IMG/VR virus record: IMGVR_UViG_3300017917_001086
Coordinates: 1 to 20,809 of that record
DNA length: 20,809 nt
Reading direction: 5' to 3' (one strand)
DNA from: a virus
This document shows positions 6,051 to 20,809 of this stretch, in pieces (the stretch's first letter is position 1; each line of letters starts with the position of its first letter). A program made the position numbers and the translations under genes. The notes beneath the pieces are model-generated. The model searched no databases and was not told the DNA's origin. It saw nothing but the letters and a program-made list of their open reading frames with translations.

Positions 6051-6195
6051 TGTATATGATTCGACTGATATTCCGGGTCGAATACAACTACATTTTAAAG
6101 ACCAACAAAGTTGTGAGCAAGCACTCCAATCAATGACTTCATGGGTGAAATTTCCCTGGTTTAAGGTCGAAGGAACATGCAAAAAACAATTCTAA
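6022..6195 (+). CDS. 57-residue small protein of unknown function
   Basis: An ATG at 6022, inside the end of the LpxH-like gene, opens a 57-codon frame ending with TAA at 6193-6195 inside the glycosyltransferase gene. It fills the otherwise empty gap between them. The N-terminus is hydrophobic (MWILFLIVV). The remainder is protein-like, with a SCEQALQSMTSW helix and a strand WFKVEGTC giving two cysteines. Small phage proteins of this pattern (CE..L..M...F..FKV...C) seem familiar, but I cannot name a family. The true start may be an internal codon, since the hydrophobic residues lie in the overlapped part. Confidence 0.45.
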   Translation: MWILFLIVVNVYDSTDIPGRIQLHFKDQQSCEQALQSMTSWVKFPWFKVEGTCKKQF

Positions 6196-7187
6196 TTGTG
6201 ACAGATAATTTACCTGAACAAATAAATGGTGTCGTTACTACATACAAAAATATTGAAACGTATGCGATTCGTGATGGTTATCGTTTTGTTTATATTACTC
6301 CCAATGAGTTCAGCTACATTGATTGCCCTATCTATAACGAAGTCAAGATTGCATATCCAAGGAAAATGGGCCAGAAGATTGAGGCGATATGTCCGGATTA
6401 TATCCATATCGCCACCGAGGGTCCTTTGGGTTTGTGGGCTAGAAAATATCTTACAAAACATAATATTAGGTACAATACTGCTTATCATACTAAATTCCCT
6501 GAAGGATTGGAAACCCTTCTTGGAATTCCTGAATCTATTACCTGGCGTTATATAAAATGGTTTCATAAGCATACTGGCAAAGTTTTGACTACAACAGAGT
6601 CTATGGTAAAACAACTTAAGGAACAGGGATTAGTAGCCGAAATTTTACCTTGGACTCGGGGTGTTGATAGAACTATTTTTAATGATTCTTTAAGAGTAAA
6701 ATCTAAACGAGATATAAATTTAGTATGCGTAAGTCGTGTTAGTAAAGAAAAAAATTTAGAAGATTTTTGTAAACTAGATTATTTTCATGCCACTAAATAT
6801 GTGGTGGGTGACGGTCCTTATAGAGCAGAATTAGAAGAAAAATACCCAGATGTAAAATTTGTTGGATATAAAACAGGAAAAGATTTAGCTTACTATTATG
6901 CCAATGCTGATGTGTTTGTTTTTCCTAGTCAGTGGGAAACTTTTGGCATCGTAATGATTGAGGCAATGGCATGTGGTACTCCTGTAGCTGCTTTTCCAGT
7001 TCAAGGACCTATAGATGTGGTTGAACATGGCGTTACTGGATTTCTAAGAAATGATTTAAGATTAGCTATTACAGAATGTTTAACTTTAAATAGATTTGAT
7101 GTGATGGAAGCAAGTTTAAAATGGTCTTGGGAAGATGCATGGACTATTTTTAAAAATAATTTAACACCGATAAATAAACAATTATAA
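6177..7187 (+). CDS. GT4-family glycosyltransferase
   Basis: This 336-residue protein has the two-domain GT-B layout of retaining GT4 enzymes. The N-terminal acceptor domain begins with TILIVTDNLPEQINGVVTTYKN, whose NGV...Y loop is typical of the acceptor side. It continues through TAYHTKFPEGL and a linker around EILPWTRGVD. The C-terminal donor domain has VCVSRVSKEKNL, VVGDGPYRAELE, the FVGYKTGKDLAYYYANADVFVFPS block and the ETFGIVMIEAMACGTPV motif, whose two Glu residues form the EX7E signature. The family resembles mannosyl- and glucosyltransferases acting on lipids or LPS. The donor sugar cannot be read from sequence, but ADP-heptose made by the Hld genes is a possibility. AAGGA at 6170-6174 supports the start. 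Confidence 0.88.
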   Translation: MQKTILIVTDNLPEQINGVVTTYKNIETYAIRDGYRFVYITPNEFSYIDCPIYNEVKIAYPRKMGQKIEAICPDYIHIATEGPLGLWARKYLTKHNIRYNTAYHTKFPEGLETLLGIPESITWRYIKWFHKHTGKVLTTTESMVKQLKEQGLVAEILPWTRGVDRTIFNDSLRVKSKRDINLVCVSRVSKEKNLEDFCKLDYFHATKYVVGDGPYRAELEEKYPDVKFVGYKTGKDLAYYYANADVFVFPSQWETFGIVMIEAMACGTPVAAFPVQGPIDVVEHGVTGFLRNDLRLAITECLTLNRFDVMEASLKWSWEDAWTIFKNNLTPINKQL

Positions 7188-7639: not shown

Positions 7640-8317
7640 ATGAACTGTATTTTTTGTAATAGATTATGTAAAAATTTAAATTCGTTGAGAAATCATACAA
7701 GACTTTGTAAATTAAATCCTAACTTTTTACCTGCTCCAAAAAAATCTGAAGCATGGTATAAAAGTATGAATAAACAAAAATCTGAAGCATGGTATAAAAG
7801 TATGAACAAACGAAAAGGAAATGGAACAAATCAATATACCAAAGCTAAAGAAACAGGGATACCTTACATCTTAAAAGAGTCCACACGGAAAAAATTAGGT
7901 GTCTCGGGAACTGAACGTGTTTGGACTGAAGAAATGCGTAAAAAACATTCTGAATCTATGAAAAAAGCTGTAGAAACAAATCCAGAATCATATACCTCCT
8001 CTAATAGGGGTCGGGTTAAACAAATTACGTACGATGGTATAAAATTTCAAGGAACGTGGGAATTAGAATATTATAAGTGGAGTATATCTAATAATATTAA
8101 AATAGAAAGATGTGAAGAATCATTTTCCTATGAATGGAAAGGTATACGAAAATACTTTCCTGATTTTTATCATCCTGATTTGGATTTATATGTTGAAGTA
8201 AAAGGATATGAAACCGATAGAGACAGAGCAAAATGGTCTCAATTTCCGAAAAAATTGTCTATTATAAAAGAAAAAGATATAAAAGATATTAGAAAAGGAT
8301 GCTTTGTGCGGCTATAG
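7640..8317 (+). CDS. PD-(D/E)XK-type homing endonuclease with N-terminal zinc finger
   Basis: This 225-residue protein looks like a free-standing phage homing endonuclease. The N-terminus is a Cys/His finger (CIFCNRLC then NHTRLC, residues 3-23). Basic DNA-contact modules follow, including a tandemly duplicated SEAWYKSMNK unit (residues 36-58), and then a TRKKLGVSG and MRKKHSESMKKA helix-like region. The C-terminal catalytic domain is FQGTWELEYYKW (Glu), then RKYFPDFYHPD and LYVEVKGY, giving the PD...ExK signature. This class includes I-Ssp6803I, which targets a tRNA anticodon region. Here the gene sits exactly after the anticodon of a broken tRNA-Arg and its last bases form the start of the next tRNA. 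Translation is probably late (see the nested hairpin). Confidence 0.82.
   Translation: MNCIFCNRLCKNLNSLRNHTRLCKLNPNFLPAPKKSEAWYKSMNKQKSEAWYKSMNKRKGNGTNQYTKAKETGIPYILKESTRKKLGVSGTERVWTEEMRKKHSESMKKAVETNPESYTSSNRGRVKQITYDGIKFQGTWELEYYKWSISNNIKIERCEESFSYEWKGIRKYFPDFYHPDLDLYVEVKGYETDRDRAKWSQFPKKLSIIKEKDIKDIRKGCFVRL
7742..7813 (+). repeat. 36-bp tandem duplication inside the homing endonuclease gene
   Basis: Units 7742-7777 and 7778-7813 are nearly identical (two differing bases seen) and in frame, each encoding KSEAWYKSMNK plus one residue. The near identity points to recent duplication of a DNA-contact module. Confidence 0.85.
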
Positions 8318-8393
8318 CTCAGAGGTAAGCAGCACTCCGCTCATAACGGATAGGTCCCTGGTTCGAATCCAGGTGGCCGCACAAAGCATCCTT
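8295..8393 (+). repeat. 18-bp perfect inverted repeat enclosing a tRNA(CAU) gene
   Basis: AAGGATGCTTTGTGCGGC at 8295-8312 is the exact reverse complement of 8376-8393. Two further pairs (T8313-G8375, A8314-T8374) complete a 20-bp helix whose inner seven pairs are the tRNA acceptor stem. The left arm is also the end of the homing endonuclease coding region. Confidence 0.9.
8308..8381 (+). tRNA. tRNA with CAU anticodon (Met or lysidine-type Ile), no encoded CCA
   Basis: The acceptor pairs GCGGCTA 8308-8314 with TGGCCGC 8374-8380. The anticodon loop CTCATAA has anticodon CAT at 8342-8344 on stem CTCCG/CGGAT, whose outermost pair is C-T. The T arm is CCTGG/CCAGG with TTCGAAT. The D stem is weak (three pairs plus a C-C mismatch). 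It lacks the C1-A72 mismatch of initiator tRNA. Alone among the complete tRNAs here, it is followed by ACAAAG rather than ACCA, so CCA must be added or the gene is degenerate. Its first 10 bases overlap the endonuclease gene. Confidence 0.75.
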
Positions 8394-8410
8394 ACTATGA
8401 AAGGTGTTAA

Positions 8411-8878
8411 ATGAAACTAAATCTAGAACAAGTACAGCAATTTATCGAAGCACAAAGTCCTCAGACTAAAATATACATTGGATGTGATTCAGAAAGATAT
8501 CGCAGAAATAATGTATGGTACGCTGATTATATTCTTGCCATTGTAGTTCATATTGATGGTAAGCATGGATGCAAAATCTTCGGTGAAGTAATAACAGAGC
8601 GAGATTATGATCAGAAAGCATCCAAGCCAACATTTCGTTTAATGAATGAAGTGTATAAGATTAGTGAACTGTATCTTAAATTGCAAGAAGTTCTAGTGGA
8701 TAGAGATGTTGAAGTTCATCTTGATATTAACCCAGATGATGACCATGTAAGTAATATAGTGTTATCTCAAGCAGTTGGTTATATCAAAGGTACTTGTAAT
8801 GTTATCCCTTTAGTCAAACCAAATGCATTTGCTGCTAGTTACGCAGCAGATCGTCTCAAGGAATTGAAAATAGCATGA
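8411..8878 (+). CDS. RNase H-like fold protein (DUF458/YkuK-like)
   Basis: This 155-residue protein resembles the YkuK/DUF458 group, predicted to have a ribonuclease H-like fold. The first strand IYIGCDSER carries Asp26 and Glu28 in the position of the first metal ligand. The second strand ILAIVVHID is followed by an acidic helix. A later VHLDINPDDDHVSN block (about residues 102-115) supplies more acidic residues, and a PNAFAASYAADRL helix ends the domain. No member is known to me with a defined substrate, so nuclease activity is inference. GAAAGGTG precedes the ATG. The stop overlaps the ATG of hldD (ATGA), so the two are translationally coupled. Confidence 0.7.
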   Translation: MKLNLEQVQQFIEAQSPQTKIYIGCDSERYRRNNVWYADYILAIVVHIDGKHGCKIFGEVITERDYDQKASKPTFRLMNEVYKISELYLKLQEVLVDRDVEVHLDINPDDDHVSNIVLSQAVGYIKGTCNVIPLVKPNAFAASYAADRLKELKIA

Positions 8879-9657
8879 ATATATTAATTACAGGATATAA
8901 CGGGTTTATCGGTCAAAATATGACAAGATATTTATCAGATCATAATCTTTATTTCTTTGAATGGGGTGAAGTTTTTGATTCTAAAATTTTTAAAAAATTG
9001 GATTGGGTAATTCATCTAGGAGCCAATAGTTCAACAACAGAAACTGATGTAGAAAAAGTTTATAGCAGAAATGTTGATTTTACTCTTACCCTATCTTTGT
9101 TATGTAAACAGTTTGATGTAAATCTTCAGTACGCAAGTTCAGCAAGCGTATATGGATTGAATACTAATTTTGCTGAGGATGCTCCTAAAAATCCTCAAAG
9201 CCCATATGCTTGGTCCAAATTTATTGTAGACAGATATATGGAACACACACAATTTAGTAATAACAATATTTTGGTTCAGGGTTTTAGATATTTTAATGTA
9301 TATGGCCCATATGAAAGCCACAAAGAAAATCAAGCAAGCCCGTACTATAATTTTGACAAACAAGCTAAAGAAACGGGTGTTATCAAGATCTTCGAAGGTA
9401 GTGAGAATTTTAAGAGAGACTTTATTCATGTTGATACTGTATGTAAAATACATGAAGCAATGTTAAATAAAAAAGTGTCTGGAATTTTTAACGTAGGTAT
9501 GGGAGAAACTAAATCCTTTCTCCAAGTCGCAGAAGAAATAGCAAAAAAACATAATGCCAAAATAGAATACATCCCAATGCCAGAAAATATTAAATATCAA
9601 TATCAAACCTACACATGTGCTGATTTAACAAAATTGAATGGAGTTCTAAATGGCTAG
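8875..9657 (+). CDS. hldD: ADP-L-glycero-D-manno-heptose 6-epimerase, C-terminally short
   Basis: HldD (RfaD) converts ADP-D-glycero-D-manno-heptose to the L-glycero form used in LPS inner core. The Rossmann motif GYNGFIG is at residues 7-13, GANSSTTETD at 49-58, catalytic Tyr111/Lys115 in YAWSK, and RYFNVYGPYESHKENQAS, FEGSENFKRDF and SGIFNVGMGETKSF follow in HldD order. The end, IEYIPMPENIKYQYQTYTCADLTKL, is specific to this family rather than to general NAD-dependent epimerases. At 260 residues it stops about 45 short of the usual 305-310, losing the last helices of the substrate domain. It overlaps rpoZ by 8 bases. With hldE1 and hldE2 at 1665-2760 it supplies three steps of ADP-heptose synthesis. 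Confidence 0.88.
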   Translation: MNILITGYNGFIGQNMTRYLSDHNLYFFEWGEVFDSKIFKKLDWVIHLGANSSTTETDVEKVYSRNVDFTLTLSLLCKQFDVNLQYASSASVYGLNTNFAEDAPKNPQSPYAWSKFIVDRYMEHTQFSNNNILVQGFRYFNVYGPYESHKENQASPYYNFDKQAKETGVIKIFEGSENFKRDFIHVDTVCKIHEAMLNKKVSGIFNVGMGETKSFLQVAEEIAKKHNAKIEYIPMPENIKYQYQTYTCADLTKLNGVLNG

Positions 9658-9874
9658 AATAACCTCGGAAGTAGCATCAATTAAAATTGGCAATAAATAC
9701 GATATGGTATTAATTGCTGCAGCAAGAGCTAGAGAATTAAAACGAGGGCATCGATCGACTCTCGGAGAAAAGAATCGCCCTATCGTAACTGCTATTCGAG
9801 AAATAGAACAAGGATTAATTGGTAGAGAATACTTAAGAAAGCTAAGAAATGCATCAAATACAAAAAGGAAGTAA
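9650..9874 (+). CDS. rpoZ: RNA polymerase omega subunit
   Basis: This 74-residue protein closely follows bacterial omega. MARIT opens it, KIGNKYDMVLIAAARARELKRG covers the conserved region 1 that contacts beta-prime, and NRPIVTAIREIEQGLI matches the second conserved helix (E. coli has NDKTTVIALREIEEGLI). Omega wraps the beta-prime C-terminus and aids polymerase assembly; it also forms part of one ppGpp site together with beta-prime. It is somewhat shorter than the E. coli subunit (about 90), losing only the variable acidic tail, and here ends basic (RNASNTKRK). Position 8 bases inside the end of hldD and ahead of a micro-ORF puts it in a compact phage operon. A phage copy could alter host polymerase. 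Confidence 0.88.
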   Translation: MARITSEVASIKIGNKYDMVLIAAARARELKRGHRSTLGEKNRPIVTAIREIEQGLIGREYLRKLRNASNTKRK

Positions 9875-10016
9875 ATATGCGTTAGTTGAAGCAAGAACTT
9901 TTGGTGGATATAGAGTATTTCTTTACAATGCTTACTTTGATTCTCAAGAAGAAGTTTATTTCGAAACCAAACAAGAAGCAGATGAATATGCTAATTTTTG
10001 GATAACTTTAGATTGA
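9849..10016 (+). CDS. 55-residue hypothetical protein overlapping rpoZ
   Basis: ATG at 9849 opens a 55-codon frame that ends with TGA at 10014-10016 and overlaps rpoZ by 26 bases. The product has a protein-like composition: strand KYALVEARTF, strand YRVFLYNAYFD, strand EEVYFETKQ and a helix EADEYANFWITL. This suggests a small beta-sheet domain. No family is recognised. Its stop codon lies in the -35 box of the next promoter. A better-looking ribosome-binding site at about 9865 leads only to an ATG followed by an immediate stop, so the 9849 start is preferred. Confidence 0.5.
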   Translation: MHQIQKGSKYALVEARTFGGYRVFLYNAYFDSQEEVYFETKQEADEYANFWITLD

Positions 10017-10041
10017 CACCCCAATCAAGTTATTATATAAT
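10013..10041 (+). promoter_or_regulatory. consensus sigma70 promoter for the winged-helix gene
   Basis: TTGACA 10013-10018 and TATAAT 10036-10041 are both exact consensus and 17 bases apart, the ideal spacing. It shares 14 bases around and after the -10 (10035-10048) with the promoter at 1131-1159. The transcribed leader holds a 6-bp hairpin, ATCGCA 10056-10061 with TGCGAT 10070-10075. Confidence 0.85.
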
Positions 10042-10092
10042 TAGTTATGGTGATGATCGCACACCTATTTGCGATGAATTTATGGAGTTATT

Positions 10093-10341
10093 ATGCTTAA
10101 AACTCGTGTATTGAAAGTTTTACAATCTGGTCGTAACTTTACCCCAGCACAATTAGCTGGTCTAACTGGTAGTTCTGAGGATAGCATTCGTCCTCGTATC
10201 AGCGAACTACGTGCTGAAGGTTATGCTGTATATAGTAATACCACTAAGAACGGCAAACATGCTTATCGTTTAGGCAAACCAAGTCGTCAAATGGTTGCTG
10301 CTGCTTATAAGCAAGCAGGTAGCGCAGCGTTCTCAGCGTAA
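10093..10341 (+). CDS. small winged-helix DNA-binding protein
   Basis: An 82-residue protein with a helix-turn-helix (FTPAQLAGLTGSSEDSIRPRISELRAEGY, residues about 16-44) followed by a beta wing (AVYSNTTKNGKHAYRLG) and an Ala-rich tail. Very similar small winged-helix proteins are common in T4-like aquatic phages and are thought to be transcription factors. Conserved arginines in the recognition helix (RPRISELR) fit DNA contact. It is driven by the strongest promoter in the window and uses a clear GGAG ribosome-binding site, so high early expression is likely. Codons seem richer in C and G at third positions than those of its neighbours, consistent with high expression. Confidence 0.8.
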   Translation: MLKTRVLKVLQSGRNFTPAQLAGLTGSSEDSIRPRISELRAEGYAVYSNTTKNGKHAYRLGKPSRQMVAAAYKQAGSAAFSA

Positions 10342-11038: not shown

Positions 11039-11046
11039 AATAAATA
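11039..11046 (+). promoter_or_regulatory. T4-type late promoter (variant) for the virion module
   Basis: AATAAATA differs at the first base from the T4 late box TATAAATA and matches the NATAAATA form reported for cyanophages. It lies between the terminator and the first late gene, about 28 bases before its ATG, a suitable distance. Confidence 0.5.
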
Positions 11047-11074: not shown

Positions 11075-12244
11075 ATGAAAACTTTCTCAGAGCATTTAGA
11101 AGAAGATTATTACGACGTTTTGGATTTGCAAGAAGAAGCTGACGATCCTACTAAAGAGGGAGGAGTTTCTAATAACACTAAAGGTGTATTACATGAATTG
11201 CTTGTAGGTAAACATCTTAATGGTGGTTCTCATATGAAAAAACATGAAGATGAGAACAAAATGAGTCCAGAACAAGTCCATGATAAGTTAAAAGCACAAA
11301 TTCATCCTAAAGATTATGAAAGAATTGATAAAAAAGCTAAAAGTGCTGCCGAAGATATAAAAGCAAATTTAGCTAAATCGCATCCCGGACACGCTATGCA
11401 TGAAGTAGTTTGGACATCTAAACCTGGCGATACGCAAAAAGTTACAGGCATTCCTGCGTCTCAAATTCAAGATTCATCTGATATTTACGTTACCACTAAA
11501 CACGCTAAAACTGGCAAATTAGTTCATCATGGTTGGAGCTTAAAAGTAAGCGATAAATCTAATAAAGAAATACCAGCATCTAGTCTTGGTATGAAATCAT
11601 CTGGCTCTAAAGCAGAAGCGCTATTCAGAGAACATCAAAAAAATGTGAGGGAACAATATCCAGAATTAGCAGGTAAAAATGATGTTGCAAGAAAAGAATG
11701 GGCTCGTGCAAATCCAGAGAAACATGCTGAAATTAAAAAAATGAATCAAAATTTATTAAGATCAGTTGCATCTGAACATGCTAAAGAACTTCAAAACAAA
11801 TTAGACTCTAAAGATTATGAATCTGTAGTGAATCATATTAGAAATGTTATAGCAGCAAAAACTACTCCAGCAGAAGAGGCAGGAGCTGCTACCTTTCAAA
11901 AACATACAACATATCAAACAGCTAAGGGTCCTCAACATAATACTGCTAAACCAAGTCAAGATTATGAATATATACTTAAAGACCCAAAAAATATTTCAGT
12001 ACAATCAAGTGGTGCAGGAGTTCATTTTTATTACAAAGGCAAAAAATTTGCTAGTCAATCCCAAAAATTTGATTCCCAAAGTGATCCGTTAAGTAATTTA
12101 AAAAGTGCAGGTAAATCAACCAATATTAAACCTGAAACTACAGAAACAAATACATCTTCTCTACCTAAACCTAAAGAACCAGAAACTGGTACTCATATAA
12201 TTATTCATAGTGGTGGAAGTAATAAAAAAGTGAAATTGTCATGA
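11075..12244 (+). CDS. capsid-targeted protein with possible PD-(D/E)XK nuclease core
   Basis: This 389-residue protein starts MKTFSEHLEE, which aligns residue by residue with the T4 internal-protein capsid-targeting sequence (MKTYQEFIxE type) and would be cut after Glu10 by a gp21-like prohead protease. A possible nuclease core follows: helix GVLHELLVGKHL with Glu41, strand SSDIYV with Asp136, and strand GWSLKVS with Lys157. The E...D...xLK spacing resembles PD-(D/E)XK folds, with Ser155 replacing the usual Glu. That reading is my inference. The C-terminal 120 residues are low-complexity and Ser/Lys/Pro-rich. It is the first gene of the late module; its stop overlaps the next start (ATGA). 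Confidence 0.65.
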   Translation: MKTFSEHLEEDYYDVLDLQEEADDPTKEGGVSNNTKGVLHELLVGKHLNGGSHMKKHEDENKMSPEQVHDKLKAQIHPKDYERIDKKAKSAAEDIKANLAKSHPGHAMHEVVWTSKPGDTQKVTGIPASQIQDSSDIYVTTKHAKTGKLVHHGWSLKVSDKSNKEIPASSLGMKSSGSKAEALFREHQKNVREQYPELAGKNDVARKEWARANPEKHAEIKKMNQNLLRSVASEHAKELQNKLDSKDYESVVNHIRNVIAAKTTPAEEAGAATFQKHTTYQTAKGPQHNTAKPSQDYEYILKDPKNISVQSSGAGVHFYYKGKKFASQSQKFDSQSDPLSNLKSAGKSTNIKPETTETNTSSLPKPKEPETGTHIIIHSGGSNKKVKLS

Positions 12245-13431
12245 AATTATTCCTCGACTTTTTACTAGAAGAAAAAAATGAATCTATTCCTCATCTGCGA
12301 CATTTAGCAGGGGAAAGCCACTTCTATGGTGAACAAGAAACAGATGACGAATTGAAAAGATTAGAGCATCTACATAAGCACCTTTCAGGTGAGCAATCCA
12401 ATGTAGAAAGTATTAGTATGAAGGCTGATGGATCACCTTCATTTAATATGGGATACGTTAAGGATCCTCGAGACGGAGAAACTAAATTTGGAGTAGCTTA
12501 TAAAGGTGCAGCTAGAGGATTCGCCTTTACTCAGGACGACGTAAATAATCTATTTGCTCACAATGAAGGCCTCAAATCGAAAATGGGTCAACTACTTGAG
12601 CATGGATCCAAGGTGGTTAGACCTCAGCACGGATTGATTCAAGGTGATTTTATGGGTAGTAAGCAAGATAAAACTATTCGTAAAGAGGGCGATAAGATAA
12701 AATTCAAAGAAAATACTATTGATTATGGTATAGATAAAAATTCATCTGAAGGTAAAGCAATTGGCAAAGCTAAAATTATGGTTGCCTTACATACGAGAAT
12801 TGATGGAGAGAATAAAGAGTTTAATCTTCATCCAAATAAATTTCCTCATAGTGATGATGTAGCTGTGTTCAATAACAAAGTCTACCACAATCCAGAGAAT
12901 TATACTAAAGAACAAAAACAAGACTTTGAGAAAAATTTTAGTAAAGCAAAAGAACATCTAAGTCAAATTAGAGATCATACTTCATTGGTAGATGGACTAA
13001 CAGATCATCTACAGACTTATGTCAACAGTACAGTTAGAGAAGATACAAATCCAACAGTAGCAGGATTTAGAGCACATCTCAAAGAAAAACTAAGTAAACA
13101 GGTAGATAAATTAAAATCAGAAAAAGGCAGACAGAAGAAAACAGACGAAATGAATTCTAATCTGTTTAGAGTAGATGAAAATGCTAAAGATTTTAAACAT
13201 CTATTTGCCGCCCATACTCATCTCGACAAAGCAAAGAACACTCTGACCGATTCATTGAATAGTGGAGAACAACATTATGAGCATGAAATCAAAGGTGAAC
13301 AAACACATCCAGAGGGCTATGTTGTTAAATACAAAGGCGGAAATAGTTTAGATAATGTTGCTAAGGTAGTTAATAGACAAGAATTTTCAAGAAAGAATTT
13401 CTTAGATGAAACGTTTCGGTTCCTTTATTAA
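12241..13431 (+). CDS. capsid-targeted ligase-like covalent nucleotidyltransferase
   Basis: This 396-residue protein begins MKLFLDFLLEE, another capsid-targeting-like N-terminus with Leu8 and Glu10. Downstream are motifs of the DNA/RNA ligase and capping-enzyme superfamily: motif I KADG (61-64) with Lys61 as the likely AMP-linked residue, FGVAYKGAARG (83-93), GLIQGDFMG (131-139) in the place of motif III, and EGYVVKYKG (about 358-366) in the place of motifs IV and V. A long Lys-rich insertion separates the last two. It resembles a phage family that I recall as DUF6267. A sealing or end-modifying reaction on nucleic acid is plausible; there is no direct proof. It overlaps the next gene by 26 bases. 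Confidence 0.7.
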   Translation: MKLFLDFLLEEKNESIPHLRHLAGESHFYGEQETDDELKRLEHLHKHLSGEQSNVESISMKADGSPSFNMGYVKDPRDGETKFGVAYKGAARGFAFTQDDVNNLFAHNEGLKSKMGQLLEHGSKVVRPQHGLIQGDFMGSKQDKTIRKEGDKIKFKENTIDYGIDKNSSEGKAIGKAKIMVALHTRIDGENKEFNLHPNKFPHSDDVAVFNNKVYHNPENYTKEQKQDFEKNFSKAKEHLSQIRDHTSLVDGLTDHLQTYVNSTVREDTNPTVAGFRAHLKEKLSKQVDKLKSEKGRQKKTDEMNSNLFRVDENAKDFKHLFAAHTHLDKAKNTLTDSLNSGEQHYEHEIKGEQTHPEGYVVKYKGGNSLDNVAKVVNRQEFSRKNFLDETFRFLY

Positions 13432-13909
13432 AGAAAATAAACGAAACAAAGATCTAGATCATTTTCTAGATCATGCAAAGCAAGAACTCGGCTTGGAATC
13501 TTTGCCGACTATTAATATGGTAAATGATAAAAATGTCGCTATACAGAATAGAAGCTTCGGTGGATACAGTCCAGGGTTAAAAGAGATAAATGTTAATACC
13601 GCCGGTAGACATCCAGTAGATGTTTACAGAACATTGGCACATGAATTAGTTCATTATAAACAAGATATGGATGGTAGACTAACTGTTAATGCTGGAGAAA
13701 CAGGATCTACATTCGAAAATGAAGCAAATACCTTAGCTGGCGTTATAATGCGAAATTACGGAAGAGCTAATCCGAAGATATATGAGGATTATGAAAATCC
13801 ATATCGCTTTGACTGGGCGACTCCAGAAGGAACAAAATATATGATGAAACAATATCCTTGGAAAATAATTGCTACAAAAACTGCTAAAGAAATATTAAAA
13901 AAGAAGTAA
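13406..13909 (+). CDS. capsid-targeted zinc metalloprotease-like protein
   Basis: This 167-residue protein starts MKRFGSFIKE, with Ile8 and Glu10 as in the T4 capsid-targeting sequence. The core is a gluzincin-like metallopeptidase: AHELVHYKQD with zinc ligands His79 and His83 and catalytic Glu80, then FENEANTLAG where Glu106 can be the third ligand. The HExxH...ENEA layout recalls M78/IrrE-ImmA proteases. A strand LKEINVNT precedes it as an edge strand. It lacks a pro-domain or secretion signal. If packaged, it could act on host proteins at the start of infection; a role in virion maturation is the alternative. Confidence 0.72.
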   Translation: MKRFGSFIKENKRNKDLDHFLDHAKQELGLESLPTINMVNDKNVAIQNRSFGGYSPGLKEINVNTAGRHPVDVYRTLAHELVHYKQDMDGRLTVNAGETGSTFENEANTLAGVIMRNYGRANPKIYEDYENPYRFDWATPEGTKYMMKQYPWKIIATKTAKEILKKK

Positions 13910-13955
13910 CAATATCATCTAGGCTCATAGCAAATAATAACACCGTGTCAATACT

Positions 13956-14744
13956 ATGTCTATAAAATCTATCAAAGAAAAGGAGCTATTGGTCAACTTG
14001 GCCAAGTCTTTTGGTCAGAAAGTGGATCCAACTCTTTTATCTGAAATTGAACAGCACAAAAAATTCGAAAATAATATTAGAGAATCTATTAGATCAAATG
14101 TATTTGAGGATTTAACTAAAGCATTAGCTGAACTAAAACAAGAAGCAGATAGAGTTAGTATAGAGTATAACTATCCTCTACCTCCTTCTTTAGAAGATCT
14201 TGATACTATAATAGCGGAGGAAGAAAATGACTTGGATCAGACGACGACCGAAGAAATCACCTCCCCCGTTACCCACGCCAACACCCTCTCCGATCTTGCC
14301 GCAAAAGCAATTACCGCCAGCGCAAAACGAGATTCTTTCCAACAACCAGATCCTTTGCTGGTGGCACCTGATGTAAATTCTATACAGAAAAAGATTCGCT
14401 ATCTGGAGCAATGGATAGCTAAGATATCAGAATACGGTCCCGGCGGTGGAGCAGGTTCGGTAGCCAAATTAGACCATGAAACTAAATTAATTGATTTTCC
14501 TAGTTACGATGTTACGACTAAAGATTATTATTTGGGTGTTAACTTTGCCGGTAACGTATCAATTTATTTACCCGAAGCAATTAATAATGGTAGAATGTAT
14601 ATTATTAAAGATGAATCGGGTAATTGCTCTACCTTCCCAATAAGAGTATATGGTAATGTGGATAATGACCCTGGTGGATTTATTTTACAGCAAGATAATG
14701 GTGGCATTCAAATGATTTACAGAAATGGTTGGAGAATAGTATGA
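13956..14744 (+). CDS. virion structural protein with C-terminal beta domain
   Basis: The N-terminal 110 residues of this 262-residue protein are helical and charged (ELLVNLAKSFGQ, then KALAELKQEADRVS), followed by a Thr/Ala-rich linker. Around residues 145-165 there is a helix KKIRYLEQWIAKISEYGPGGG, and then a beta-rich domain (YYLGVNFAGNVSIYLP, NGRMYIIKDESG, GGIQMIYRNGWRIV). This end domain is typical of structural proteins of T4-like aquatic phages and precedes the next structural gene in the same way. Tail, neck or fibre location cannot be decided from sequence. It ends in an ATGA overlap with the following gene, implying coupled synthesis. Confidence 0.7.
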   Translation: MSIKSIKEKELLVNLAKSFGQKVDPTLLSEIEQHKKFENNIRESIRSNVFEDLTKALAELKQEADRVSIEYNYPLPPSLEDLDTIIAEEENDLDQTTTEEITSPVTHANTLSDLAAKAITASAKRDSFQQPDPLLVAPDVNSIQKKIRYLEQWIAKISEYGPGGGAGSVAKLDHETKLIDFPSYDVTTKDYYLGVNFAGNVSIYLPEAINNGRMYIIKDESGNCSTFPIRVYGNVDNDPGGFILQQDNGGIQMIYRNGWRIV

Positions 14745-16075
14745 CGTATCTATTTAGCAGTGGCACTGTAATTACCAATGAAGTTGAAGTAAAGAATGAT
14801 GCTGGTAATGCAATACCAATAAGTAAAAATACTTTAACTAATTCTGATTCCAATCCTATATTTGTAAAAGGTACTGCGGATACTAGTTTCTTTGCTCCAA
14901 CTCAAACTGATGCTTTTGGTAGACTCCGAGTGAGCAATCCTTTTACTATTTTTGATAACTCATTTTCTGTGGGTGATAATGAAAGAAGATGGTCCACAAG
15001 TAATACTAATGCTACATCTTTTGTTTTTAATGCTAATACTGCTAGCATTAATATGAATGTTACTACAAATTCTGGAGATCATGTTTACAGACAAACTAAA
15101 AGATACTTTCAATACCAACCCGGAAAAAGTCTTTTAAGTTTAAATACATTCGTGATGAATTCTGGCAAAGCCAATCTTAGACAACGTGTTGGGTATTTTG
15201 ATACTCAGAATGGTATTTTTTTAGAAAATTTTAGCAATGTTAATTATTTAGTAAAGCGTAGTTATGTAACTGGATCAGTTGTAGAAACTAGAATAGCACA
15301 ATCAAATTGGAATTTTGATCCCATGTTAGGCACAGGTCCAAGTGGTAAACATTTGGATATATCTAAAGCACAAATTTTTTGGACAGATGTAGAATGGTTA
15401 GGGGTTGGTTCAGTAAGAGCTGGTTTTGTTATAGATGGAGAATTTCAAATATGCCATCAGTTCAATCATGCTAATATAGAATCTAATGTTTACATGTCAA
15501 CTGCTACATTACCTATAAGATATGAAATTGAAAATGTTGGTCCTACAGATTCTCCTAGTACATTAAAACATATATGCAATACTGTAATAAGTGAAGGGGG
15601 ATATGCCCCAGCAGTTGTTACAAGATCAGCATCTACCTCTTTGGCCGGGTTGGAAATGTCACAAACTAATTTTAGACCCTTGTTATCATTAAGATTAAAG
15701 ACCGGACAATATGGGCAGGTAGTAGTACCATCTAAAATAGATTTATTTGGATTACAATCTACGCCATTTGTGTATAAAATTGTGACAAATGCAAATGTCA
15801 TAGGCGGCGTATGGTTAACCACAGGTACTGATAGTGTGGTTGAATATAATGCAAATGCTACCACACTTGGAGTAGGGGGATTTGATCTTCTGCAAGGTAT
15901 GTTTGTCGGTGGCACTTCTGCTCAACCCGTGTCAATTTATTTGAAAGAATTCAACCATGCTTTTCAACTTAGGGCAAATATTACTGGAGCATCTGAAGTA
16001 TTTACTATTTCAGTAAAGGCAACTACCAATAACGATGATGCACTAGGTTCAATAGCTTGGGAAGAATATAACTAA
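14741..16075 (+). CDS. virion structural protein conserved in T4-like aquatic phages
   Basis: I place the start at ATG 14741 rather than an earlier in-frame ATG (14729), because GGAG at 14731-14734 is well spaced for it and it forms the ATGA overlap with the upstream stop. The 444-residue product contains AFGRLRVSNPFTIFDNSF, RETKR-like YRQTKRYFQYQPGKSLL, LRQRVGYFDTQNGIFLE, GPSGKHLDISKAQIFW and LPIRYEIENVG. These blocks are familiar from a large structural protein of cyanophages and pelagiphages, probably tail-fibre or baseplate associated. It is beta-rich and Asn/Ser/Thr-rich throughout, with no membrane or enzyme motif. Confidence 0.8.
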   Translation: MTYLFSSGTVITNEVEVKNDAGNAIPISKNTLTNSDSNPIFVKGTADTSFFAPTQTDAFGRLRVSNPFTIFDNSFSVGDNERRWSTSNTNATSFVFNANTASINMNVTTNSGDHVYRQTKRYFQYQPGKSLLSLNTFVMNSGKANLRQRVGYFDTQNGIFLENFSNVNYLVKRSYVTGSVVETRIAQSNWNFDPMLGTGPSGKHLDISKAQIFWTDVEWLGVGSVRAGFVIDGEFQICHQFNHANIESNVYMSTATLPIRYEIENVGPTDSPSTLKHICNTVISEGGYAPAVVTRSASTSLAGLEMSQTNFRPLLSLRLKTGQYGQVVVPSKIDLFGLQSTPFVYKIVTNANVIGGVWLTTGTDSVVEYNANATTLGVGGFDLLQGMFVGGTSAQPVSIYLKEFNHAFQLRANITGASEVFTISVKATTNNDDALGSIAWEEYN

Positions 16076-16091
16076 CCAAAATATCATATCT

Positions 16092-16099
16092 TATAAATA
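16092..16099 (+). promoter_or_regulatory. T4-type late promoter, perfect TATAAATA
   Basis: An exact match to the T4 late box in the only real gap of this region (16076-16126), about 27 bases before the ATG of the next gene. It likely starts the second transcript of the late module, from the nucleotidyltransferase fusion onward. Confidence 0.7.
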
Positions 16100-16126
16100 A
16101 TTAACACTATATTCTAATGGACAACA

Positions 16127-17890
16127 ATGGCATCTAAATCCGCTTCATTCATCTTCGGCAGAATGAATCCTCCGACTGTGGAAGGACACGGGAAAGGTAT
16201 TCAAAAAGTTCTAGATCATGCCGAAAAAACAGGAAGTACTCCGTACGTCTTTGTTTCTCATTCGCACGATACAAAGAAAAATCCTGTCAATCCCAATACA
16301 AAAGTATCTGCTATACAGCATTCTTTTCCAGAAGCCAACGTCCAATCTACTTCTAAAGAATCTCCATCCATTATTCATATCATGAAGGATTTGAATAAAA
16401 AACATAATGAAGCCCATGTTTTTGCTGGTTCTGATAGAGTAGATGAATATCACACCCTATTACATAAGTATAACAATAAAGAATATAACTATAAAAAAAT
16501 AGTTGTACATAGTATTGGTCAAAGAGATCCAGACGGAGAAAGTGAAGAAGGTAGAATTACTTCTGGTACTGCAGCTAGGCAAGCTGCTCTATCTGATCCA
16601 AAGAAATTTCACGGTGGCGTGTTGGGTTCCAGACAACATCACGACGAAATGATACAACAAATTAGACAAGCAGCAATGTCTAAAACAAGTAAATCCCTTA
16701 GAGAACAGTTTATAAACAACGAAATATACAATTTACACGACTACGTAGTAACTAAAAACGGTAAATATGGCGAAATAGTTTATAAAAATTCTAATTACGT
16801 TACAATACAACTAGAAAATAACGAAACAGTTAAATCTTGGATATACGAGATAAAAGAAACATCTTTTAGACCAAAACGTAATGGAATCCAACAACCAGTA
16901 AAAGAGAAATTTGATGGTCCTCGTTATACCTTTCATTTTAAGCAGAAAGCTAACGAACAAAAAATACCTGCTCTTTTAATTCCAAGTAAAAAATTAATAG
17001 AAGAATCTGGACAAGTAAAGTATCAAGATTATACAACTAAAAATCTTGATATGGATAAGGATGCATCTAAACTTCTTAAACAACTTGTTGCAAGAACTGA
17101 TCTAAATCCAAAGTATGTAAAACAAGCAGTAATGGCAGTCGATAAAATGTTTGATCTTGAAAAACAAGCATTTGCAAATAAACTTCATCCAGAAAAAATA
17201 CATGATTTCACAATGTACGCCTCTATAGCCCATGATACATTAAACATGCTTGGGTATGAGGATAAAGAAATAATGTTTATACAAACACATTATATTGACT
17301 TTGCCAAATATGTAGATGAAGATGATGCTGATCTTCAAGACGATGCCCCGGGTCATATGGTCGGAATCCATGGAGGAGAAATGGATGAGGCAGTAGATTC
17401 AGATCAAAATAGATTTGTACAACAGGGCAGAGCTAGTCCTGGTATGTTTAAGAAAGTTACATCAGCTGATTACGAAACTAGAATCGGTCCTGGCGGTAAA
17501 AAATATAAAGTAAAGAAATCAATAATTTCTAAAGGACATAAACTAATAGACAAGGATGGTAGAGATAACGAACCATCTGGTGTTCCTCCATTTGCAGGTT
17601 TATCAGGAATGTACGAGAGCAAAATGAAAAATACCAAAGAATCATATGAAACACCTATTAAAAATTTAACACATGATGTTACTAAACCAGAAAACAGAGT
17701 TGGTATAGTACCATTTAGTGATTATCTAAAAATGAAGATGGATCAAAAGGCCACTCAATTTGGTACTGAGATTGGTGGGTCAGCAATTCAAGAACCACCT
17801 CCAAAATCCACAGATAAGAATATACATTTTACTTCTAAATCAAAAAGCGCAAAGACTGCTGCTAAAAGAATTCAAATGGGATTGGATTGA
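16127..17890 (+). CDS. NadM-like nucleotidyltransferase fused to a long C-terminal region
   Basis: The first about 180 residues of this 587-residue protein are a cytidylyltransferase-like domain. They show FGRMNPPTVEGH (10-21), the equivalent of GRFxPxHxGH, and SGTAAR (146-151), the equivalent of the ISSTxxR phosphate-binding motif of NMN adenylyltransferases. The first motif has Thr for the first His and one extra residue before GH, so activity is uncertain. Residues about 200-245 (DYVVTKNGKYGEIVYKNSNYVTIQL) look like a small SH3/KOW-type barrel common in these phages. The remainder is helical, then disordered and Lys-rich. Such fusions occur in the structural gene region of T4-like aquatic phages. 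It overlaps the Dps start by one base. Confidence 0.72.
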   Translation: MASKSASFIFGRMNPPTVEGHGKGIQKVLDHAEKTGSTPYVFVSHSHDTKKNPVNPNTKVSAIQHSFPEANVQSTSKESPSIIHIMKDLNKKHNEAHVFAGSDRVDEYHTLLHKYNNKEYNYKKIVVHSIGQRDPDGESEEGRITSGTAARQAALSDPKKFHGGVLGSRQHHDEMIQQIRQAAMSKTSKSLREQFINNEIYNLHDYVVTKNGKYGEIVYKNSNYVTIQLENNETVKSWIYEIKETSFRPKRNGIQQPVKEKFDGPRYTFHFKQKANEQKIPALLIPSKKLIEESGQVKYQDYTTKNLDMDKDASKLLKQLVARTDLNPKYVKQAVMAVDKMFDLEKQAFANKLHPEKIHDFTMYASIAHDTLNMLGYEDKEIMFIQTHYIDFAKYVDEDDADLQDDAPGHMVGIHGGEMDEAVDSDQNRFVQQGRASPGMFKKVTSADYETRIGPGGKKYKVKKSIISKGHKLIDKDGRDNEPSGVPPFAGLSGMYESKMKNTKESYETPIKNLTHDVTKPENRVGIVPFSDYLKMKMDQKATQFGTEIGGSAIQEPPPKSTDKNIHFTSKSKSAKTAAKRIQMGLD

Positions 17891-18321
17891 TGGAACAGTT
17901 GCAACTTGCTATTAATAAAGTATTGGCTGATACTTTTGGCATGTACTACAAAGCACATGCATATCATTGGAATGTAGTTGGCCCAGACTTTAGTCAGTAT
18001 CATGATTTCTTCGGTAAGTTATATGAAGAACTGTTTGGTGCTGTAGATACTATAGCAGAGCATGTTAGAGCCATTGATGGTTTAGCCCCTGCTAATCTAT
18101 CTAAAATAAAAGAATTATCTAGTTTATCTGATGCTGATCCAGGTTCAGCTATGGATATGTTTAATGATTTACTAATGGCTAATAACTTAGTACTAGTTTC
18201 ATTAATGAGAGCATATCAATTAGCAGATGATGCAGACGAATTGGGTTTAGCTAATTTTATTCAAGATAGAATTGATATTCATCAGAAACATGGTTGGATG
18301 ATCAAAGCAACACTTAAATGA
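17890..18321 (+). CDS. dps: Dps-like ferritin-fold protein
   Basis: ATG 17890 (TGATG overlap) is preferred to a TTG one codon earlier, giving 144 residues. The ferroxidase signature of Dps is intact: YYKAHAYHWNVVGPDFSQYHDFFGKLYEEL contributes two His, and AVDTIAEHVRAIDG the Asp and Glu, so an inter-subunit di-iron site is possible. The second helix pair (FNDLLMANNLVLVSLMRAYQLADDADELG, then FIQDRIDIHQKHGWMIK) completes the four-helix bundle. Dps dodecamers bind or protect DNA and oxidise iron. There is no basic N-terminal tail, so DNA binding may be weak. It sits within late virion genes, suggesting protection of replicating or packaged DNA. Confidence 0.88.
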   Translation: MEQLQLAINKVLADTFGMYYKAHAYHWNVVGPDFSQYHDFFGKLYEELFGAVDTIAEHVRAIDGLAPANLSKIKELSSLSDADPGSAMDMFNDLLMANNLVLVSLMRAYQLADDADELGLANFIQDRIDIHQKHGWMIKATLK

Positions 18322-18707
18322 AAAAGTTCTTTATTCTTAGACAAGAAATATATGAAGCAGCTATTCCTGAAGCTGTAAAAGATATTCATGTAAATCTTGA
18401 GAATAGACAACATGCTATAGATGAATACATGTATGGACCAGCTAATCCAAATGAGCCTGGAGATTACTGGAAAGAATTAGGTAAAATCTGGGACATATCT
18501 GAGGATGAGGCAAGTACAATGAGATGTGGTAATTGTGCTGCTTTTAATATCAAACCTGCTATGAGAAAAGCTATTGCAGATAATATTAGTGATAATGGTA
18601 TGGAAGTTGTGGATTTAGCTAATCTTGGGTATTGCGAATTATTTCACTTCAAATGTGCTGGAGACAGAAGTTGTTCAGCTTGGTTAACTAATGGACCACT
18701 AAAATGA
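18318..18707 (+). CDS. Cys-rich metal-binding-like phage protein
   Basis: This 129-residue protein has five or six closely placed cysteines in the C-terminal half: RCGNCAAF, GYCELFHFKC and RSCSAWLT, an arrangement fit for zinc or an iron-sulfur cluster. Proteins with this CxNC...YC...C...C..W pattern are common hypotheticals in T4-like aquatic phages; I know no function. The N-terminus (MKKFFILRQEIYEA) partly resembles a capsid-targeting sequence: Phe4 and Glu10 fit but Arg8 does not, and a second IYE-A site follows at 11-14. It overlaps both neighbours by four bases (ATGA). Confidence 0.68.
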   Translation: MKKFFILRQEIYEAAIPEAVKDIHVNLENRQHAIDEYMYGPANPNEPGDYWKELGKIWDISEDEASTMRCGNCAAFNIKPAMRKAIADNISDNGMEVVDLANLGYCELFHFKCAGDRSCSAWLTNGPLK

Positions 18708-19180
18708 AACAATTTAAAGAATACCTTGAAGAAGGTTATAGAATTAAAGAAGAAGAATTAAACGACTGGATCTCTGTTTTCACTTGGGAAGAGATTAGCG
18801 ATCTATACGAAGAAGAAGAATTTGAACAAGAAGAACCTGTTACATTGTCAGAAAAGATTTCTGCTTCTACTAGACTTCGTAAGGGGCAACAGTTAAAGTC
18901 CAGAGGTTCTCGTTTGGCTGTTGCTAAACAAATGAAACTACTAAGAACATCTTCTCCTGAGGTATTAGGAGCTAGAGCTAAAGCAGCTGCTCGAAGAATG
19001 TTGATGCAAAAGTTTCTACAGGGTAAAGATAAAGGGACATTATCTGCTCAAGAAAGAGATCGTTTAGAACAAAGAGTATCTAGCATTATAAAGATGCAAC
19101 CAGCTCTTGTTGTAAAAATGACACAAAAGGTTAGAACTCTTGAACGTTCAAGATTAGCAGGCAAAAGTAAAAAGAAATGA
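18704..19180 (+). CDS. basic head-type protein with capsid-targeting N-terminus
   Basis: The N-terminus MKQFKEYLEEG fits the T4 capsid-targeting pattern (Phe4, Tyr7, Leu8, Glu10, then Gly11). An acidic segment (about residues 11-48, many Glu) is followed by TLSEKIS, a further L-x-E site, and then a strongly basic region with helices LAVAKQMKLL, ARAKAAARRMLMQKFLQGK and ERDRLEQRV and a C-terminal LERSRLAGKSKKK. The acidic propeptide plus basic body recalls T4 internal and core proteins, in which proteolysis frees DNA-binding proteins in the head. Similar basic proteins are annotated as structural in vibriophages and cyanophages. Length is 158 residues; both ends overlap neighbouring genes by four bases. 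Confidence 0.7.
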   Translation: MKQFKEYLEEGYRIKEEELNDWISVFTWEEISDLYEEEEFEQEEPVTLSEKISASTRLRKGQQLKSRGSRLAVAKQMKLLRTSSPEVLGARAKAAARRMLMQKFLQGKDKGTLSAQERDRLEQRVSSIIKMQPALVVKMTQKVRTLERSRLAGKSKKK

Positions 19181-20809
19181 AATTGCCGGTAACTAATGAG
19201 GATTTAAGAACCTGGTTTCGACAGAAATGGGTTCGAATGGATACTAAAGGCAATATTAAAGGTGACTGTGCCAGAGAAGAAGGTGAAGGTAAGCCAAAAT
19301 GTTTACCATCCGCGCAAGCACATTCAATGAGTAAAGCTGATAGAGCAACAGCTGCCAGAAGAAAAAGAAGAGAAGATCCTGTAGCAGATAGACCCGGAAA
19401 GGGCGGAAAACCAATTAACGTGAGGACCGAAGAAATGAATTTAGAGGAAGGCAATAAGCCAACTAATCCAGCTCTGTGGTCAAGAGCAAAGGCATTAGCG
19501 AGATCTAAATTTGATGTTTATCCTTCTGCTTATGCTAATGGTTGGGCCGCTAAATGGTATAAGTCTAAAGGTGGTGGTTGGAAATCTGTTAGCGAAGGTG
19601 TTGATGACGAAGGTGGCATGGCTAAAGGTGAATTAGAAACTATAGCAGGTAAAGCTAAATCTCTTTCTAAGATGATGAAAAAGAATAAACAATTAGATGC
19701 ATGGGTACAATCTAAGATTACTAAGGCTGATGATTACATTGGTTCGGTGCATGATTATTTAAAGAACAGTAAACAGGAAGTAGACGAGCAAATGCAAAAG
19801 AAAACATTCTTTAGGTTAAGAGAACAACTTGATTCTGTTTGTATTGATTGTGATGATTCTATATATGGGTCAGTTGAGGAAGACTTTGAACCAACAGGTG
19901 ATGAACAGTATGAAGATTGGGATTTAGATGAAGCCAATGATGCTGACAAGTATACCTACATAGATCAGACTAAAGGTCCTGTATTAAGGGGTAAAACTGG
20001 GACATATGTAGGTTATACACATTCTGCTACCAAAGGCAAGGGTGCCAACATTCTAAAGCATAACAAGACTAAAAAGTATTATGCAGCAGGTGGTTCTTCT
20101 ACAGCATTCACGCAAAAAACTACTTTACATGATACACCTGAAGATGCAGCTAAGGCATATCACGATAAACAGAAGGAAAAGCTAGCCGAAGACTTTGAGT
20201 TAGACGAAGCAGCGTTTGCGCCTACCATGCGTAAAGCCATGGCAGCACATGAGCGTGGCGATCATAAAATGGTCAAGTATCATTTAGATAATGCCAAGAC
20301 TGCCAGATATGCCATGAAGTCCACAGACATTGCCAAACATAAAGATCTCTTGGACAAGTACAAAGAACTTAGAGCTATGCATGAGGATGTTGAGGATGTG
20401 GCTGAAGAAGCATCGCCCATGATCAAGCCACCCAAGAACGAATTTACCACCAAGGCAGATGCGTTTTCCCATGCCAAGAAGCATGGTGGTAAGGTCATGA
20501 AAAAGACATTCACCCATCCCACTTCTGGTATGAAGCATGTTAGCTATGTGGTTAGAGAAGAAGCCGAATTAGATGAAGCTAAGTATCAAAAATTATCAGC
20601 ACATGAGAAGTTTAAAAATTCTATGAAACGTGCTGGTTATGATATGGATGCTGGTGCTAAAAGATTACAAGACTTATTAGCTAAGCAAAAGAAAGAGCGT
20701 GAAGAAAGAGAAAAGCAAGGTGTGGCGGAAGGCTGGGGCTTTGATAAATGGGGGCACGATACATGGACTGATGCTCAAAAAGAAGTAGCACGAAAGAAAA
20801 AGAACGAAA
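19177..20809 (+). CDS. modular, probably protease-processed virion protein (partial, runs off the window)
   Basis: ATG at 19177 (ATGA overlap) opens a frame that stays open for 544 residues to the window edge. Segment 1-91 contains RTWFRQKWVRMD and paired Cys31/Cys42 with Lys/Arg-rich SMSKADRATAARRKRR, a module known from other aquatic phages. Segment 93-140 (NPALWSRAKALARSKFDVYP, WAAKWYKSKGGGW) resembles a DUF5872-type module. Later segments include KTGTYVGYTHSATKGKGA, an Ala/His-rich helical unit (350-400) and HAKKHGGKVMKK (432-443). Segments are separated by L-D/E-E followed by Gly or Ala at 89-92, 250-253, 342-345 and 465-468. These match the cleavage rule of T4 prohead protease, so I infer a polyprotein of small cargo or core proteins. 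Confidence 0.7.
   Translation, partial: MKLPVTNEDLRTWFRQKWVRMDTKGNIKGDCAREEGEGKPKCLPSAQAHSMSKADRATAARRKRREDPVADRPGKGGKPINVRTEEMNLEEGNKPTNPALWSRAKALARSKFDVYPSAYANGWAAKWYKSKGGGWKSVSEGVDDEGGMAKGELETIAGKAKSLSKMMKKNKQLDAWVQSKITKADDYIGSVHDYLKNSKQEVDEQMQKKTFFRLREQLDSVCIDCDDSIYGSVEEDFEPTGDEQYEDWDLDEANDADKYTYIDQTKGPVLRGKTGTYVGYTHSATKGKGANILKHNKTKKYYAAGGSSTAFTQKTTLHDTPEDAAKAYHDKQKEKLAEDFELDEAAFAPTMRKAMAAHERGDHKMVKYHLDNAKTARYAMKSTDIAKHKDLLDKYKELRAMHEDVEDVAEEASPMIKPPKNEFTTKADAFSHAKKHGGKVMKKTFTHPTSGMKHVSYVVREEAELDEAKYQKLSAHEKFKNSMKRAGYDMDAGAKRLQDLLAKQKKEREEREKQGVAEGWGFDKWGHDTWTDAQKEVARKKKNE

Follow-up and report, generated by a model that had tools for sequence, protein, structure and literature searches.

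A probable T4-type capsid-targeting leader on candidate cargo proteins of an aquatic Kyanoviridae-like phage

We analysed a 20.8-kb IMG/VR virus record (IMGVR_UViG_3300017917_001086, positions 1 to 20,809; hereafter the window), which is a fragment of a phage genome. Four proteins encoded in its right half began with the same ten-residue leader, M-x-x-F-x-x-[FYH]-[LI]-x-E, and the bodies behind the leaders were unrelated. This leader very probably serves in capsid targeting and processing, and the region around it is, with the same high probability, a cargo island in the genome of a T4-type, Kyanoviridae-like phage. We propose that F4 and F/Y7 would attach the cargo to the prohead core, that a gp21-type protease (Peptidase_S77) would cleave after E10 at the LxE site, and that the mature proteins would share the head with the DNA until their ejection into the host. 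The cargo set would comprise a DUF6267 nucleotidyltransferase of the ligase superfamily, an HExxH peptidase, a possible nuclease and a basic protein, and the adjacent protein encoded from 19177 would probably be split at internal LxE/A sites into small domains. Genes are named by their first position in the window, and a slash marks a predicted cut.

The leader in the window and the T4 rules

The four leaders, all assigned by motif match, were as follows.

11075..11104, + strand: leader MKTFSEHLEE, predicted cut after E10
12241..12270, + strand: leader MKLFLDFLLE (DUF6267 protein)
13406..13435, + strand: leader MKRFGSFIKE
18704..18733, + strand: leader MKQFKEYLEE

An initial annotation of this DNA had described these four open reading frames (ORFs) and N-termini correctly, and had aligned them without gaps, with an aromatic residue at position 4, Leu or Ile at 8 and Glu at 10. 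Residues 2-25 of each of the 27 genes in the window were shuffled and scored with the motif M..[FY]...[LI].E, which was not a fitted pattern because T4 had set it beforehand. The motif was present in 4/27 genes versus 0.03 expected by shuffling (probability of at least four matches, 2.2e-8), confirming the alignment. F4 was present in all four leaders. Position 7 was aromatic or His (H, F, F, Y), the H7 of 11075 being a deviation from the aromatic rule. This constraint had been overlooked, as had 19177, which is likely to be a gp21 substrate with several sites, and the fact that the leader is widespread beyond the window phage. The fifth protein, 18318 (MKKFFILRQEIYEAA), had been said to fit partly, and it does: L/I at 8 and E at 10 were found in four of the five window proteins, 18318 failing at position 8, where it has R. 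An IYE/A site lies three residues further on, and its homologue L188:11347 has the full leader MKTFKQYIFE.

The nearest relative (G001/L001) repeated three of the window's leaders. Its DUF6267 leader, MKSFIEFLSE, differed from MKLFLDFLLE at variable positions, with 4, 7, 8 and 10 unchanged. The 11075 leader was retained on homologues with bodies 22-65% identical, and the 13406 leader was kept in L154, L156 and L161, with bodies 46-66% identical. The 18704 homologue in C48C1 starts MLSFKQFVSE, and several other homologues keep F4/Y7 with S at position 8. In a further 18704 homologue, L154:8526-8993, position 10 is D (MITFKEHIED). In T4, aspartate at position 10 allows targeting and blocks processing; by analogy, the L154 protein may be packaged as uncut cargo.

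Ten residues of the T4 internal protein IPIII suffice for packaging, mutagenesis assigned residues 4 and 7 to targeting and residues 8 and 10 to processing, and T4 gp21 cleaves after (L/I)xE (PMC9026906). We compared these rules with DUF6267, on which the leader was found in 83/91 proteins with bodies about 30% identical; E10 was invariant in a 30-sequence alignment. Among 70 distinct DUF6267 leaders, position 4 was F in 69/70 (F or Y in 70/70), position 7 was F/Y, position 8 L/I and position 10 E in 70/70 each, and positions 2, 3, 5, 6 and 9 varied; the pattern by which the leaders were selected, which 83/91 homologues fitted, restricted positions 4, 7, 8 and 10, yet permitted several residues at 4, 7 and 8. 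On the evidence of the alignments, the conserved leader positions 4, 7, 8 and 10 are those that T4 assigns to targeting and processing.

The leader shares with T4 IPI, IPII, IPIII and Alt (MKTYQEFIAE type) its ten-residue N-terminal place, the determinants at 4, 7, 8 and 10 and the LxE site, as well as the gp21 protease (here in relatives) and the joining of one conserved leader to varied mature bodies. The description of the window N-termini as being exactly as in T4 internal proteins held for the key positions, but not for the residue at position 4, which is Y in T4, whereas the leaders of aquatic phages prefer F. T4 cargo consists of small basic proteins, whereas that of the aquatic phages consists of larger enzyme folds. 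Unlike in T4, the leader recurs, in one Kyanoviridae-like aquatic phage after another, on the same families of enzymes, and a candidate multi-site polyprotein adjoins.

Since the genes adjoin in one operon-like cluster, the shared N-terminus might come from common descent or local duplication and have no targeting function. This explanation was tested and rejected on the conservation pattern, and we consider it very improbable: the bodies are unrelated, positions 4, 7, 8 and 10 alone are conserved while 2, 3, 5, 6 and 9 vary, and the same leader occurs in T4 internal proteins and distant genomes.

A T4 protein other than the known internal proteins had the same leader pattern. Gp61.1 (NC_000866 18966-19130, 54 aa) starts MKTFKEFIKE, and its gene lies in the same 41-61 interval as the cyanophage cluster, this cluster being placed between the gp41/MazG and gp61/nrdA regions in HTVC008M, P-HM2, S-CRM01 and S-SZBM1. 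Gp61.1 differs from the window cargo in its small size and in having no homology to it. We predict from its N-terminus that gp61.1 is a packaged internal protein.

Spread of the leader and virion proteomes of relatives

A positional control with the core [FY]..[FYH][LI].E covered 4,297 distinct N-termini, taken from isolate genomes and from contigs. The core started at position 4 in 131 N-termini versus 0.53 per internal position, and in 51 when the largest family (DUF6267/cytidylyltransferase) was removed. In isolate genomes only, with the same family removed, it started there in 10 versus 0.35 per internal position, which is the fair figure because the contig set had partly been gathered via leader-bearing relatives. 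Protein families with the core near the N-terminus numbered 20 versus about 2 per control interval. No leader core was found in T7 or cyanophage P-SSP7. Chance, or the start-codon context of AT-rich phage genes (such genomes abound in MK starts and E-rich N-termini), was refuted as the source of the motif by the positional enrichment; the composition-matched shuffles and the result in T7 and P-SSP7 contradict it too, and its probability is negligible.

The leader also came and went among orthologues. The DUF6267 protein of C48C1 starts MLDFKNFITE, and those of P-HM2, S-CRM01, XG4 and S-SZBM1 have no leader. The cytidylyltransferase of the window phage (16127) has none, and its homologues in Syn9, P-SSM2, C48C1, S-CRM01 and S-CREM2 carry it. 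Judged by these alignments, the leader is modular: it shifts from one domain to another, unrelated one, and orthologues that can be aligned have acquired or lost it.

The protease side was examined in relatives. All eight of the T4-like isolate genomes that were searched, one of them T4 itself, encoded gp21 (Peptidase_S77), and in contigs G002 (166.9 kb) and G009 (60.5 kb) leader genes occurred together with gp21 and gp23. An aligned LxE site was found in the N-regions of gp23 from the Kyanoviridae-like phages C48C1 (GFLTE/T), P-SSM2 (NFLSE/A), S-CRM01 (LFLAE/A), P-HM2 (VLTE/A) and S-CREM2 (LLTE/A). Its core is that of leader residues 7-10 and of T4 FLTE/A.

Published proteomes place leader-bearing proteins in virions. 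In S-CREM2 virions, the structural proteins were accompanied by a SAM hydrolase, an APH/ChoK-like kinase, a cytidylyltransferase and a Cas9-like nuclease (PMC10665884). We found that the first three all have the leader. Leader or leader-like N-termini in S-CREM2 (OR473000) were those of ORF6 (MKDFDSFLEE), ORF14 (GTG start; KRFDAFLTE), ORF154 (MKNFSSFLTE/A) and ORF13 (MKDLHSFLTE). The virion-detected 'Cas9-like' ORF12 (7704-10313) has RFASFMAE/A at about residue 25, and from its sequence its start may be misannotated or its leader longer. Of 219 S-CREM2 ORFs scanned, five matched the motif and four of these were detected by mass spectrometry (MS); 4/5 leader ORFs were detected versus 28/195 among non-structural ORFs (p=0.0016). 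ORF136 (MQTFSMFFSE) was an additional MS-detected near-match. In S-SZBM1, protein 140 (MRFRQFIIE/A) was detected in virions and the adjoining leaderless DUF6267 protein (141) was not listed. In S-CRM01, the product of the gene annotated as a serine/threonine kinase has the N-terminus MISFDQFLSE, and a putative kinase has been reported in virions of that phage (cited in PMC10665884). Virions of S-SM1 contained the cytidylyltransferase cluster T4-GC190 (PMC3037559). The virion-associated enzymes of S-CREM2, S-SZBM1, S-SM1 and S-CRM01 thus resemble our system in a homologous cytidylyltransferase and in leaders, with virion presence published (PMC10665884, PMC9146016, PMC3037559). They differ in that DUF6267 is leaderless there and in that virion presence was reported without a targeting signal, as far as the available text of these papers extends.

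From this published proteomics, leader-bearing proteins are packaged in relatives. The leader, its modularity and the presence of gp21 in relatives are read from sequence, and the virion detection of leader-bearing homologues from published data. The initial view of these N-termini as T4-type capsid-targeting sequences was borne out by their conserved positions, which are the T4 targeting and cleavage residues, by modularity, by their presence on MS-detected S-CREM2 enzymes and by gp21 in such phages. Packaging in the window phage is likely, and we infer that cleavage, injection and cargo activity follow there. The immediate anti-defence or genome-repair role that was suggested initially for the cargo is conjectural.

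Several points weigh against this reading. The S-CREM2 authors considered the enzymes possibly encapsulated and could not exclude carry-over of non-virion proteins (PMC10665884). S-CREM2 ORF175 and S-SZBM1_191 (MKSFKSFLSE), both with leaders, were undetected by MS, and no DUF6267 protein was detected in a virion, although the copies of S-CREM2 and S-SZBM1 are leaderless. Gp21, gp22 and gp23 were not found within the 20.8-kb window, although the absence of gp23 is expected for a fragment. One of the scans that gathered the IMG/VR contigs was queried with the leader peptide MKQFKEYL, and the cut after E10 is a sequence-based prediction.

Candidate cargo and the protein encoded from 19177

The leader-bearing and adjoining candidate genes were as follows.

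11075..12244, + strand: candidate cargo, 389 aa, possible PD-(D/E)XK-type nuclease (weak); no Pfam/PHROG match
12241..13431, + strand: DUF6267, candidate cargo resembling covalent nucleotidyltransferases and RNA/DNA ligases; Pfam DUF6267 E=5.6e-51
13406..13909, + strand: putative zinc metallopeptidase, candidate cargo (HELVH); HExxH, phrog_87 metallo-protease E=4.7e-5
18318..18707, + strand: Cys-containing protein with degenerate leader MKKFFILRQEIYE/AA; position 8 is R
18704..19180, + strand: basic candidate cargo protein, assigned from sequence; homologues in C48C1, HTVC008M and IMG/VR contigs
19177..20809, + strand: candidate cargo polyprotein, running off the contig end; [LI]xE[AG] site excess

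In the 30-sequence alignment of DUF6267, the motifs KxDG, QGD, EGxV and K were invariant (K61, D63, G64, E358, G359, V361 and K375), corresponding to the KxDG lysine of ligase motif I, EGxV of motif IV and the lysine of motif V. The structural model scored 88 in the predicted local distance difference test (pLDDT), and its residues 1-16 scored below 50. Foldseek by itself matched the model to nothing significantly, and a sequence-profile search against PDB gave nothing meaningful. The 50 matches listed by VIA-align were nearly all RNA/DNA ligases, RNA ligases first; the best among those listed was a Naegleria RNA ligase (Z 8.9, root-mean-square deviation 4.0 over 190 residues). Because VIA-align was unanimous and the catalytic motifs were present, with Z moderate, the initial 'ligase-like' assignment of 12241 is upheld, and DUF6267 is predicted to have an RNA/DNA-ligase-like nucleotidyltransferase fold.

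For 11075, D136 and S155-x-K157 were conserved among homologues. The model (pLDDT 70.9) had HinP1I as its sole long structural match (Z 4.7 over 209 residues), which scored below short chance matches; short RNA-polymerase matches of about 90 residues were discarded as chance. The 'nuclease-like' label is weakly favoured by the conserved residues and HinP1I but not by the rank of that score, and the model points only weakly to a PD-(D/E)XK-type nuclease. The claim that 13406 is protease-like was strengthened by a conserved HExxH (HELVH or HELTH in 8/8 listed homologues of its branch). Against Pfam, Tox-MPTase3 appeared only below the cut-off. The protein is a putative zinc metallopeptidase.

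HAD-type phosphatases (DVDDT) with leader-like N-termini were seen near DUF6267 in other phages (L188:8501-9124, L218:5379, L254:7020 and L182:4904), the L182 protein fusing an HExxH domain to the DVDDT motif. One leader-bearing HAD protein had a weak match to the phrog_415 polynucleotide kinase. A functional refinement of the capsid-targeting reading would be an end-repair kit, in which ligase-like DUF6267 and PNK-type HAD phosphatases seal host-inflicted RNA/DNA breaks right after injection. The structural neighbours of DUF6267 are RNA/DNA ligases, RNA ligases first, and leader-bearing HAD proteins stand beside DUF6267 in L188, L218 and L254, one with the weak phrog_415 match; the window cluster has no HAD gene, however, and Foldseek alone did not match DUF6267 significantly. 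An end-repair role of the cargo set is offered from sequence as a hypothesis only, and is somewhat doubtful.

The 19177 protein had predicted gp21-type sites after nucleotides 19449 (NLEE/G), 19932 (DLDE/A), 20208 (ELDE/A) and 20577 (ELDE/A). These four [LI]xE[AG] sites compared with 0.54 expected, a number reached in 4/2000 shuffles, and the complete homologues had 6 versus 0.64 (L154) and 4 versus 0.46 (L001). When proteins of at least 200 aa were ranked by site enrichment, gp22 of S-CREM2, XG4, T4 and S-PM2, several gp21 and the L154 and L001 homologues were near the top, so that known substrates served as positive controls. The inter-site segments recurred in different order among the three phages (the window phage, L154 and L001). 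One cassette (AEKNGKKVQLNKP...) was first found in eight contexts, nearly all preceded by LxE/A or a variant, and in L238:3928 it stands alone right behind a leader (SFKSFKEWLAE/AEYQG). The KKV cassette was not a Pfam family. In a wider scan, the site preceded the cassette in only 28/68 distinct contexts, and of 18 contigs in that scan with no detectable gp21, three had the site or a near-site. These results no more than suggest an association of the site with gp21; the junction rule breaks down in gp21-less contigs outside the T4-like set and is claimed only within it. We tentatively propose, as a possibility to be taken seriously, that 19177 encodes a cargo polyprotein of small cassettes, shuffled between phages, joined by gp21-type LxE/A sites and released in the prohead, so that one gene would load a cocktail of mini-proteins.

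The leader might instead bind the prohead core for another reason: the proteins may serve as scaffold or morphogenesis factors in the head and have no effector role in the host. T4 IPIII is known to take part in morphogenesis (PMC9026906), and the candidate 19177 polyprotein ranks with the scaffold gp22 for cleavage sites. However, leaders occur on enzyme folds that scaffolding has no need of (ligase-like, HExxH, HAD, cytidylyltransferase, SAM hydrolase and kinase) and are gained or lost on orthologues, and we regard this alternative as improbable.

Among other systems, the ejection proteins of phiKZ and SPN3US are likewise head proteins processed by a gp21-related protease, with several sites per propeptide (PMC9026906), but they are cut after (S/A)xE, a different residue preference, and a conserved ten-residue FxxF leader has not been reported for them. 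Another system sends an antirestriction protein to the capsid by an N-terminal signal (PMC9024508), but the sequence differs and the N-terminal region is larger than the window leader.

Gene layout, novelty and significance

The window contains about 27 plus-strand genes and six tRNA genes. The order of the right-half cluster is 11075, 12241, 13406, 13956, 14729, 16127, 17887, 18318, 18704 and 19177, in which the following genes have no leader-based assignment.

13956..14744, + strand: island protein with no leader, flanked by the metallopeptidase and structural-protein genes; no Pfam/PHROG match, L001 orthologue
14729..16075, + strand: virion structural protein, phrog_1645 (E=1.6e-111)
16127..17890, + strand: cytidylyltransferase/NMNAT-like protein, phrog_3041

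A Dps/ferritin-like protein with no leader is also encoded inside the island (17887-18321). Late-promoter-like sequences were found on the + strand at 11039..11046 (AATAAATA), 36 nucleotides upstream of the 11075 ATG with near-equal spacing in L154, and at 16092..16099 (TATAAATA), 35 nucleotides upstream of the 16127 ATG. The total count of NATAAATA in the whole window was not above chance, so only the spacing before 11075 and 16127, recurring in relatives, is used. The permuted control TAAATAA, which overlaps the late-promoter pattern, gave a similar spacing count, making this evidence for late promoters weak.

Outside the island, a gene set of lipopolysaccharide (LPS)/heptose type was recognised by sequence resemblance (1665-2760, 5277-7187 and 8875-9657). 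It comprises HldE-like nucleotidyltransferase and kinase halves, an LpxH-like metallophosphoesterase, a glycosyltransferase and a nucleotide-sugar epimerase (phrog_540), and suggests surface remodelling of a Gram-negative host. A GGQ-containing release-factor-like protein (1168-1572, phrog_3122) is possibly an ArfB-type ribosome rescue factor. A PstS-like phosphate-binding protein (3556-4566, phrog_5385) belongs to a known class of auxiliary genes of marine phages.

Capsid-targeting sequence (CTS)-like N-termini are known in T2, T4 and T6, and CTS-enabled packaging of varied proteins by T4-like phages has already been proposed. In the open PubMed Central (PMC) library we found no paper on a capsid-targeting sequence in cyanophages or other Kyanoviridae, and its full texts held none on DUF6267. 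The mechanism itself was thus described before; within the reach of the open PMC search, what is new is that it extends to aquatic T4-like phages and to named enzymes, and perhaps to a polyprotein.

T4-like phages are among the commonest marine viruses, and to our knowledge almost nothing is known of the proteins that they inject. A ten-residue leader readable from sequence would permit genome-wide prediction of injected proteins. It would account for the SAM hydrolase, kinase and NMNAT-like enzymes in cyanophage virions, where authors could not rule out carry-over, and it singles out DUF6267, a family present in many marine T4-like phages, as a candidate for an injected enzyme of ligase-like type. 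The polyprotein, if true, would be a compact means of loading many small effectors.

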